This document shows, piece after piece, positions 41,538-44,000 of a stretch of 44,000 nt of DNA. Source of the stretch: Bacteroidia bacterium. Its GTDB lineage: Bacteria > Bacteroidota > Bacteroidia > JADZBD01. Position numbers and translations under genes: made by a program. Below the pieces are notes generated by a model. It saw only the letters and a program-made list of their open reading frames with translations. It searched no databases and was not told the origin of the DNA. Numbering within the stretch: position 1 is the first letter of the stretch; the number at the start of each line of letters is the position of its first letter. The DNA lies in contig JADZBD010000019.1 in assembly GCA_020852255.1 (NCBI GenBank), positions 1-44,000 on the forward strand, given 5' to 3'.

Positions 41538-42917
41538 GTGATCGAAGAACTAGAGAAGATCCTCGGGAAAGAGCATGTGTTTACTGCCAGAGCAGTACTT
41601 GAAAATTACGCACATGACGAAACCGAGGATCTTTCTTTTATGCCGGTTGTAGTGGTGAAACCTCGCACCCGGGAGGAAGTTTCCCGGATAATCAAATTGG
41701 CGAACAATCATAGAATTCCTGTAACCCCTCGCGGAGCGGGCACAGGATTAAGCGGGGGGGCTCTGCCGGTGAACGGAGGCATTCTGCTTTCAATGGAGCG
41801 GTTCAATTCCATCCTGGAAATAGATGAGCGCAATCTGCAGGCCACTGTGGAGCCGGGTGTTATCACGCAGGTTTTCCAGGATACGGTGGCGGCAAAAGGC
41901 CTGTTCTATCCGCCCGATCCGGCCAGCAGAGGAAGTTGTTTTATAGGGGGAAATATTGCAGAAAACTCCGGCGGACCGAGGGCGGTCAAATACGGGGTTA
42001 CGAAGGATTATGTACTCAATCTCGAAGTAGTGCTTCCTACCGGGGAAATCATCTGGACCGGGGCCAATACATTAAAGAATTCCACCGGCTACAACCTTAC
42101 TCAGCTGATGGTGGGAAGCGAGGGAACACTGGGGGTTGTTACTAAAATTGTATTCCGTCTTATTCCTTTGCCCAAGAAAAATGTGGTAATGCTCGTGCCC
42201 TTTACTTCACCGGAAAGGGCGTGTGAGGCTGTTGCGGCCGTTTTCCGGGAGGGGATAACCCCGAGTTGCATGGAATTCATGGAGCGGGATGCGATTGACT
42301 GGACAATGAAATTCATTGACGGCGTACAGGTGCCTGTTGAGAAGAATGTAATGGCTCATCTGCTGATAGAGCTGGATGGGAATGCGGATGATGTGCTGAT
42401 GAAAGAAGCGGAAAGGATTGCAATGGTTGTGCAGCGTTTTGATTGCGGGGAGATTTTGTTCGCAGATTCGGAGGAGCAGAAAAACAACCTCTGGAAACTC
42501 CGGCGAAGGGTAGGGGAGGCGGTGAAATCTCACAGCGTTTTTAAGGAAGAGGATACCGTGGTGCCCCGTGCCGAACTTCCGGCGCTTCTTACCGGCGTGA
42601 AGGAGATAGGAAGGAAATATGGGTTCCGTTCGGTGTGCTTCGGCCATGCAGGTGACGGAAATATGCATGTGAATATCTTGAAAGAGGATATGAGCGATGA
42701 ACGATGGAATACAGAGGTTCCGAAAGGTATCCGCGAAATATTTGAACTGTGCGTTCGACTAAAAGGCACTATTTCCGGTGAACATGGCATAGGGCTTGTG
42801 CAGAAGAATTATATGGATATCGCCTTTTCAGAGAAGGCATTGGAATTGCAGAAGCAGTTAAAGAAAGTGTTTGATCCAAATCATATTTTAAACCCGGGTA
42901 AAATGTTTCCCGATTAG
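41538..42917 (+). CDS. FAD-linked 2-hydroxyacid oxidase/dehydrogenase, GlcD-like
   Basis: 459 aa from a GTG at 41538. VAO-type flavoprotein. The FAD-binding loop TPRGAGTGLSGGALP is at about 63-77, followed by GNIAENSGGPRAVKYG and SEGTLGVVTKI. The C-terminal cap carries the substrate/metal motif FGHAGDGNMHVNIL and SGEHGIG. This matches glycolate oxidase subunit GlcD and D-lactate dehydrogenase: oxidation of a D-2-hydroxyacid to a 2-oxoacid with electrons passed to a carrier. The substrate cannot be fixed; no glcE/glcF or lldEF/lutABC gene is in the window. It is cytoplasmic or peripheral to the inner membrane. The TonB-C gene starts 1 bp after its stop. Confidence 0.9.
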   Translation: MIEELEKILGKEHVFTARAVLENYAHDETEDLSFMPVVVVKPRTREEVSRIIKLANNHRIPVTPRGAGTGLSGGALPVNGGILLSMERFNSILEIDERNLQATVEPGVITQVFQDTVAAKGLFYPPDPASRGSCFIGGNIAENSGGPRAVKYGVTKDYVLNLEVVLPTGEIIWTGANTLKNSTGYNLTQLMVGSEGTLGVVTKIVFRLIPLPKKNVVMLVPFTSPERACEAVAAVFREGITPSCMEFMERDAIDWTMKFIDGVQVPVEKNVMAHLLIELDGNADDVLMKEAERIAMVVQRFDCGEILFADSEEQKNNLWKLRRRVGEAVKSHSVFKEEDTVVPRAELPALLTGVKEIGRKYGFRSVCFGHAGDGNMHVNILKEDMSDERWNTEVPKGIREIFELCVRLKGTISGEHGIGLVQKNYMDIAFSEKALELQKQLKKVFDPNHILNPGKMFPD

Positions 42918-42918
42918 C

Positions 42919-43443
42919 ATGAAAATAGCAACTCTTATAGGACTGATCTTTTTCTGTGTAGATTTTTTTGCTCAGGATGTGGTGCAGCCCGACAGTATCC
43001 AATCGGATTCCCAGAAAGTGATAGTTGTAAAGAAGCCAGTGAAAGATCCTTGTATAGTAACAGCCGGCTCAGATACCGCCTACCTTATGGAATGTACGGA
43101 TCAGGATCCGGAATTTGAAGGGGGCACTACAGCTATGTATCAGTACATTGGGAAAAAGCTAAAATACCCTAATGAAGCCCGCGCACTCGGGATTCAGGGG
43201 CGTGTATATATAAGTTTTTTTGTCAACCCGGATGGAACCATTGGTAATGTTTCTTTGCTTAAAGGGATAAATGCAACTGCCAAGGATTCAACCAAACAAA
43301 AAGAGTACACTGTGGCAGTGGAAGAAATGCACAGCCGGGCGATCACGGTCATCAAGGAAATGCCCAACTGGAAGCCGGGCTTCAAAGGAGGAGTTGCAGT
43401 ACGGACCCGTTATGTCATTCCCATTATGTACAGGATACAATAA
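42919..43443 (+). CDS. Exported TonB C-terminal-domain protein
   Basis: 174 aa. Residues 1-19 look like a cleavable signal peptide (GLIFFCVDFFAQ). A 40-residue spacer follows, then a TonB_C domain (about 65-172) with FEGGTTAMYQYIGKKLKYPNEA, QGRVYISFFVNPDGTIGNVSLLKG and MPNWKPGFKGG, the normal family motifs including the YP...A and GxV strand. A usual TonB has an uncleaved N-terminal anchor and a Pro-rich spanner; both are missing here. It is therefore probably a free periplasmic domain, perhaps binding receptors or peptidoglycan rather than transducing energy. It is cotranslated with neighbours: 1 bp after glcD-like and 1 bp overlap with the next gene. Confidence 0.88.
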   Translation: MKIATLIGLIFFCVDFFAQDVVQPDSIQSDSQKVIVVKKPVKDPCIVTAGSDTAYLMECTDQDPEFEGGTTAMYQYIGKKLKYPNEARALGIQGRVYISFFVNPDGTIGNVSLLKGINATAKDSTKQKEYTVAVEEMHSRAITVIKEMPNWKPGFKGGVAVRTRYVIPIMYRIQ

Positions 43444-43823
43444 TGATAGAATCGGTTCTTTTTATTGTTATCACACATTTTGTGGCGGACTTTCTCTGCC
43501 AGACAGATAAGATGGCGCTGAACAAGAGCCATTCCCTGAAATGGCTTTCCCTGCATGTATTAACGTATACGGCTGTTTTGGGAGTATCTTCCACCATATT
43601 CATGCAGGCAGCGGGGTGGGGGAATATTTTACTGTTTATTGGAATGAACGGCGGGCTTCATTTCATCACCGATTTCTTCACCAGCAAGGCCACATCCAGA
43701 TTGTATAAGTTAGAATCGAAACACTGGTTCTTTGTGATGATCGGCCTGGATCAGATGATTCACTATTTGTGTTTATTTCTGACGCTGGAGTACATTGAAA
43801 ATTCTCTGCCACCGCCGGTTTAA
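43443..43823 (+). CDS. DUF3307-family small membrane protein
   Basis: 126 aa with about four hydrophobic segments. The N-terminal motif THFVADFLCQTDKMA (10-24) with conserved His, Asp and Gln, and a second GLHFITDFFTSK (about 75-86), match DUF3307, a family of small integral membrane proteins often found near mobile or phage-like genes or alone. Function unknown; the paired H-x3-D motifs could bind a metal (inference). Its ATG overlaps the previous stop as TAATG (43441-43445). The stop codon at 43821 is the first base triplet of the 92-bp repeat array. Confidence 0.85.
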   Translation: MIESVLFIVITHFVADFLCQTDKMALNKSHSLKWLSLHVLTYTAVLGVSSTIFMQAAGWGNILLFIGMNGGLHFITDFFTSKATSRLYKLESKHWFFVMIGLDQMIHYLCLFLTLEYIENSLPPPV

Positions 43824-44000
43824 TCAATGGTTTCACGCAGAGGACGCAAAGGTTTCGCAGAGGGGACGGAGAATCATGTTTCTTTCTTTGCGTAATGTTA
43901 TCTCCACGGGTCTAATCAGTGGTTCCAGGCAGAGGACGCAAAGGTTTCGCAGAGGGGACGGAGAATTGTGTTTCTTTCTTTGCGTAATGTTATCTCCGCG
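43821..44000. repeat. 92-bp tandem repeat, about two units, running off the window
   Basis: Unit 1 is 43821-43912 and unit 2 is 43913-44000 (88 bp visible). They differ at 6 of 88 positions. Each unit carries CGCAGAGGACGCAAAGG, CGCAGAGGGGACGG and TTTCTTTCTTTGCG. ACGCAAAG (43844-43851; 43936-43943) can pair with CTTTGCGT (43886-43893; 43978-43985), and GGAGA (43868-43872; 43960-43964) with TCTCC (43901-43905; 43993-43997). All these arms are unchanged between units. Motifs of this CGCAGAGGACGCAAAGG kind recur in intergenic DNA of several phyla, to my recollection. The array may contain more units downstream. Confidence 0.85.

Follow-up and report, generated by a model that had tools for sequence, protein, structure and literature searches.

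What is the short tandem repeat that closes a contig of a Bacteroidia assembly, starting at the end of a DUF3307 gene? The window analysed here is that whole stretch of DNA (44,000 bases), and the original prediction saw in each 92-bp repeat unit two inverted pairs whose interleaved order would allow an H-type pseudoknot in RNA. Three options were named: a structured RNA, a mobile palindromic repeat or a chromosome-organising site. Only the mobile palindromic repeat gained support in our analysis, whereas the evidence went against the other two. We consider it likely that the 92-bp array is one end, tandemly amplified, degenerate and without a gene, of a mobile element that has iteron ends and a single gene, and the array probably belongs to a little-described kind of mobile DNA rather than to folded RNA.

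The repeat itself is real and beyond chance as a repeat: Tandem Repeats Finder returned a single tandem array in the window, at 43817-43997, with a period of 92, 2.0 copies and 93% matches. Unit 1 starts at the end of the DUF3307 gene, whose stop codon it contains, and its four arms lie where they had been placed (ACGCAAAG at 43844-43851, GGAGA at 43868-43872, CTTTGCGT at 43886-43893 and TCTCC at 43901-43905); all four are likewise present in unit 2. Counted from the predicted start at 43821 the units differ at six positions as described, and at seven when 43817-43908 is compared with 43909-44000 (43820, 43827, 43833, 43836, 43875, 43876 and 43906), all seven being outside the arms. The array had been said to run off the window; it does reach base 44000, which is more exactly the end of the 44,000-base contig, here called C19.

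A search of the genome for further copies, as the original prediction had proposed, found one other site, the last 362 bases of contig C16 (344791-345152, ca. 3.9 copies), oriented as it would be if C19 and C16 met at a single gap. Because both ends point outward in the right orientation, the simplest reading is that a single array of at least six units broke the assembly, and that it lies beside the only GxxExxY gene of this genome. We infer this join; the overlap common to the two ends is only 10 bp. Inward from its end, C16 carries three full units and one diverged unit, then an arm rich in iterons and the GxxExxY gene, beyond which further iterons with a duplication of ca. 80 bp lead to the gene for L-glutamate gamma-semialdehyde dehydrogenase (pruA). 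On this reading the array lies between the DUF3307 and pruA genes, with GxxExxY adjoining (Table 1). The duplication (L009:4123-4330, upstream of GxxExxY on C16) is direct, has iterons in each copy and lies between pruA and GxxExxY. In another genome of the order (G001), no element was found directly after the pruA homologue; the DUF3307 gene is also absent there, so that the comparison does not amount to an empty site.

Table 1. Features of the repeat array and the adjoining genes (window coordinates unless a contig is given).
Feature	Coordinates	Strand	Basis and remarks
DUF3307 gene (PF11750)	43443..43823	+	ORF; Pfam E 9e-11; stop codon in unit 1; outside the element
Repeat unit 1, gene-less inverted-iteron unit	43817..43908	+	
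Repeat unit 2	43909..44000	+	At the C19 end; continuation at the C16 end inferred
GxxExxY gene	C16:344328-344708		Array on C16 leads to the gene
Iteron CGCAGAG, unit 1	43836..43842	+	Sequence; pattern match 43836-43851
Iteron CGCAAAG, unit 1	43845..43851	+	Sequence and pattern match; inside first arm of helix 1
Iteron CGCAGAG, unit 1	43856..43862	+	Sequence
Inverted iteron CTTTGCG, unit 1	43886..43892	-	Sequence; inside second arm of helix 1
Inverted iteron CTCCACG, unit 1 (unit 2: CTCCGCG)	43902..43908	-	Sequence; overlaps TCTCC arm of helix 2
Iteron CGCAAAG, unit 2	43937..43943	+	Sequence
Inverted iteron CTTTGCG, unit 2	43978..43984	-	Sequence

In the sequence, what had been read as two "crossing helices" proves to be a 7-bp iteron, CRCRRAG, present in inverted copies. 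In each unit, iterons in direct orientation (CGCAAAG, together with CGCAGAG or a variant) precede inverted ones (CTTTGCG and CTCCRCG); helix 1 is an iteron with its inverted copy, and in helix 2 the TCTCC arm coincides in part with another inverted iteron. The helices had been described as conserved between units, and both are indeed kept in the five full units, two on C19 and three on C16. Helix 2 is not kept in the diverged sixth unit, which retains ACGCAAAG/CTTTGCGT and has neither GGAGA nor TCTCC; uncompensated loss of this kind is what the original prediction had named as counting against a structured RNA or pseudoknot, and we drop that reading. Folding was also tried and rejected as an explanation: the 92-nt unit as RNA gave a minimum free energy z-score of -0.60, with 52 of 200 shuffles as good, and as DNA it folded no better than shuffles (z -0.37). 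An Rfam search of 42000-44000 at a lenient E-value yielded nothing at gathering score and two weak matches, both outside the array.

By profile, the adjoining gene on C16 belongs to the GxxExxY family, scoring 152 bits against a cut-off of 35 for TIGR04256 and 147.8 against 22 for PF13366 (PDDEXK_3), and its genome has no other. The spaced iteron pair CGCNRAGNNCGCNRAG matches five times in the 3.28 Mb of that genome, three times around the C16 GxxExxY gene, once in the window and once elsewhere; the reversed pattern, used as a control, matches twice. With the contig ends joined as above, four of the five matches fall at the array locus, which makes a chromosome-organising site unlikely. Across this genome and 59 relatives, GxxExxY is present in 41 of 60, with up to 20 matches in one genome, and CACARAG iteron pairs occur in 27 of the 41 genomes with the gene versus 4 of the 19 without it (Fisher p 0.002).

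To look for such arms around GxxExxY genes elsewhere, we aligned the 200 bases upstream to the reverse complement of the 200 bases downstream, with a cut score of 13. Eighty named loci were fetched, five of which were too near a contig end, leaving 75 to be scored. About half of the 80 are from Bacteroidota in the narrow sense; the others come from Pseudomonadota, Chloroflexota, Planctomycetota, Cyanobacteria, Acidobacteriota, Verrucomicrobia and further groups, and three loci are from archaeal assemblies. Most are metagenome assemblies, so that the taxonomic assignment of single loci may be wrong. Inverted arms reached the cut in 52 of the 75 loci, compared with 1.7% of 8,743 sliding controls from the same loci, and the remaining 23 had none by this test. 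Matches in direct orientation were also raised (17/75), and some of these probably reflect one-sided hairpins. Two of the three archaeal loci passed (21.5 and 16.5) and one did not (8.5). In the window's genome and its relatives, arms were found at 20 of 30 loci versus 13 of 485 controls, the other ten (the window's own among them) having none, and a control family of small accessory genes (ParE_toxin) had arms at 0 of 28 loci. Three multi-copy genomes provided 36 stretches, in one of which no gene was found; 32 of the 35 with a GxxExxY gene scored at least 12 with 220-bp flanks, a set without a control of its own. The layout of a nuclease gene between matched arms of short repeats extends to many distantly related bacteria and to some assemblies of archaea. 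Some stretches of the three multi-copy genomes have other iterons; in a diverged GxxExxY branch, for example, TACGAA-type iterons replace CRCRRAG (L239, L240, L241, L243, L244, L252, L253, L254 and L256).

The window's own GxxExxY locus fell below the cut, scoring 9.0 with 200-bp and 10.5 with 300-bp flanks, although iterons of the same type lie on both sides of the gene; what places it among these elements is therefore the type of its iterons, where they lie and how rare they are in the genome. The low score is one of two observations that would suit an ordinary minisatellite, formed by slippage and unrelated to the adjoining gene. The other comes from a Flavobacterium genome (G067), in which two contig ends (L192 and L193) lie in an inverted-iteron unit array much like that of the window, with a unit of ca. 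144 bp and no GxxExxY gene within 2.5 kb at either contig end. We nevertheless regard a minisatellite as quite unlikely, given that the iteron-pair pattern is nearly confined to the array locus, that the C16 array grades into an iteron arm beside the sole GxxExxY gene, and that elsewhere GxxExxY genes are flanked by iterons of this type. This last point is also what supports the option of a mobile palindromic repeat, for in other genomes that type of iteron flanks a single-gene element with defined ends. The two cases suggest that inverted-iteron arrays may break assemblies.

The arms are runs of C-R-C-R-R-A-G iterons, spaced by 8-12 bases in 185 of 203 neighbouring pairs, and a strict pattern finds two or more iterons in 108 of 144 arms. 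At 39 of 72 loci, a loose pattern places a TTAAC- or TTCAC-like sequence ahead of the first iteron of one arm or both, and at 15 of these it does so in both. Matches between arms are more frequent within a locus than between loci (52/75 versus 221/1481). Of the 75 loci that have three iterons or more, 63 are uniform to 80% or above at the second iteron base (mean of 21.0 and maximum of 32 among 2,000 shuffles) and 60 at the fifth (shuffled mean 16.1). One pair of elements (L229 and L231), 84.8% alike over 513 bp, has CAC in all eight arm iterons of one and CGC in all ten of the other; CGC-type iterons also occur ca. 100 bases past the L229 arm, outside the element. Such concerted change at both ends of an element calls for a mechanism. 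Iteron type loosely follows the protein tree (12 changes versus 18.1 when shuffled, 68 proteins), and no residue was linked to iteron type after allowing for the tree. A residue-iteron code was considered and is not claimed: mutual information was highest at columns 85 and 5, with only four independent pairs on supported branches, which is too few for significance.

Uniform iterons within most loci would also be in keeping with operator sites, through which GxxExxY or another protein autoregulates expression, the downstream inverted copy being incidental; moreover, only a few tens of bases at most often separate the upstream arm from the point where the GxxExxY match starts. However, most loci have a matched inverted copy past the 3' end of the gene, for which a regulator has no need, nor does it need units copied arm to arm at two sites of one genome. 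We therefore hold regulation to be a very unlikely explanation of the arms.

Those copied units, L230 and L234, agree at 89.6% across the 483 bp that reach from one arm to the other, and their flanks are unrelated. Most of the shared 483 bp is the GxxExxY match itself (351 and 348 bp), and it holds no transposase gene of the kind that defines a classical insertion sequence. Inspection by eye showed no consistent target-site duplication at L230, L234 or L228. At a Flavobacterium site between the same two genes, the element is present in three genomes (G067, G068 and G069); a fourth (G066) has one geneless, arm-like remnant, with 32 bases between the aligned stretches, and a fifth (G065) has neither gene nor iterons, with 56 bases between them. 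At another site, a congener (G060) has kept both arms and the first codons and lost the core of the gene, and thus provides a single case of a gene-less derivative with both ends, as in a MITE. Gene-less hairpins are not the rule and were rejected as such: a facing arm (score at least 13) was found in only 8 of 30 gene-less iteron-pair loci, compared with 4 of 150 controls, and in 6 of 30 by a strict pattern. Two further gene-less arrangements were seen. In a genome without a GxxExxY match, iteron pairs recur with a period of ca. 150 bp (L050 and G029:C32:21592-22817), and at L067:1501-2056 (G046) facing iteron arms enclose ca. 550 bp that lack a GxxExxY gene.

As a tendency, the gene that precedes an element is read in its direction. 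The upstream neighbour is co-directional at 58 of 73 loci, compared with 466 of 690 adjacent gene pairs (p 0.046), and 35 of these 58 neighbours end 53-110 bases before the GxxExxY match. Where a co-directional upstream gene lies within 200 bases, the first iteron starts within 20 bases of its stop codon at 29 of 52 loci. This placement may reflect the chance of survival and not a choice of target, because compact operons leave little room. The strand bias would also fit arms that act in RNA, where they would be co-transcribed and pair, and RNase III would excise the element, with mobility secondary. Intervening sequences (IVSs) of 23S rRNA, which have terminal inverted repeats and are reported to be cut by RNase III (PMC4990558), would be the precedent. 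An RNA stem under selection, however, should have mismatches that lean toward sense-strand G-U, and no such lean was observed: arm mismatches at 72 loci comprised 92 of the sense type and 101 of the antisense type (p 0.56), and the relatives' set alone ran in the opposite direction (12 versus 23, p 0.09). The strand bias of the downstream neighbour is not significant (50/67, p 0.27), and the 92-nt unit, as noted, folds no better than shuffles. We judge action in RNA to be unlikely.

For the mobile-element reading, the sequences of other genomes show flanking arms that agree with each other at a given locus, uniform iterons within an element and arm-to-arm copies, as well as presence and absence between the same neighbours, a gene-less remnant and a tandem unit array. 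Where best defined, the element measures ca. 480 bp and consists of a small gene for a predicted GxxExxY PD-(D/E)XK nuclease between two inverted arms, each with a few CRCRRAG iterons in direct orientation, mostly at intervals of 8-12 bp. The GxxExxY protein may bind its own iterons and cut or nick the ends of the element, which would thereby spread into short intergenic gaps, often directly after a stop codon; the inverted iterons could then drive slippage or recombination and so give rise to tandem arrays. The copy in the window's genome looks old and degenerate, its end unit being present at least six times. We saw no sign that phages are common carriers: with one tblastn query each, phage records gave no match and plasmids 8 of 72,556 records, and IMG/VR contributed two loci.

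By profile (PF13366), the family is predicted to be a PD-(D/E)XK nuclease. In 24 aligned sequences D62, K74, E22 and Y25 are invariant and E72 is at least 90% conserved, and the C16 protein has all three residues of the D ... E-x-K nuclease motif (D62, E72 and K74). An AlphaFold model of the GxxExxY protein (pLDDT 96) was compared with known structures. The best Foldseek matches were Cas4 and lambda-exonuclease-like chains, none at E 0.001, and VIA-align placed Cas4 SSO0001 first (Z 9.7), followed by a restriction-like protein (8.3), with the archaeal resolvase Hjc (7.7) among others. In the open-licence PMC literature, GxxExxY and PF13366 receive passing mentions only, and neither the twelve iteron strings tried nor joint terms appear. 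For GxxExxY, a common family, tying the nuclease fold to iteron arms and arm-to-arm copying offers a function that can be tested and would account for a set of short intergenic repeats.

A second gene family shows this layout too. In the relatives, 25 of 30 loci of the four-helix-bundle family TIGR02436 (S23p; L198-L227) have matched inverted arms, versus 0 of 495 controls. Their iterons keep a strict 7-base period, with identities of 0.67, 0.67 and 0.63 at lags of 7, 14 and 21, and arms matched across the two families in 6 of 1050 comparisons. One of the two four-helix-bundle genes in the window's genome (L294, G000:C5:51078-51392) has no matched arms (score 7). A broader scheme is possible, though we hold it doubtful: GxxExxY elements may be a bacterial and archaeal class of transposon that moves by a PD-(D/E)XK nuclease alone and recognises terminal iteron arrays that are renewed in concert at both ends, and, with the four-helix-bundle elements and their 7-bp iterons, they may form a larger single-gene "iteron-arm" group in which rRNA intervening sequences are one branch.

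Several known systems share parts of this design. The modelled protein has a nuclease-like fold in common with XisH, the fdxN element excision controlling factor, and with Hjc, but the matches (Z 7.7 for Hjc 1gef and 6.3 for the XisH-type protein 2okf) are under 8 and may mean a common fold only, and a sequence search of solved structures in the PDB gave no match to the GxxExxY protein at E 0.1. REP/BIME sequences are intergenic palindromes tied to one small DNA-acting protein (RAYT, TnpA_REP), and in both respects they resemble the GxxExxY elements. RAYT, however, is a Y1 transposase whereas GxxExxY is a PD-(D/E)XK protein by profile, and the GxxExxY arms enclose the gene and vary in iteron sequence by locus. 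The BrickBuilt MITE of Porphyromonas gingivalis is likewise intergenic and short, with inverted ends and internal tandem repeats; its ends resemble those of the IS5 family and, in the part of the description available to us, no transposase remnant lies inside (PMC4596501), whereas a full GxxExxY element has its own gene. TAACTGA heptamers of Beggiatoaceae, Cyanobacteria and Bacteroidetes are, like the GxxExxY iterons, short tandem direct repeats between genes with a patchy spread, for which no mechanism is evident in the portion of the report at hand. They differ in being a fixed heptamer, found mainly upstream of start codons, and that same portion describes no enclosing arms or linked gene (PMC4679880).

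A further parallel in layout is the IVS of 23S rRNA, in which one small gene also lies between inverted arms. The Coxiella IVS is reported to carry S23p, with tandem heptamers ahead of the gene and a terminal stem of 28 bp, and the function and origin of IVSs are there termed unclear (PMC4990558). The GxxExxY element differs in encoding a protein with a predicted nuclease fold, in spacing its CRCRRAG iterons at 8-12 bp and not strictly at 7 bp, and, in the window, in lying between protein genes, whereas an IVS is defined by an rRNA gene and S23p. A layout common to GxxExxY and four-helix-bundle genes would place the rRNA intervening sequences in a wider group.
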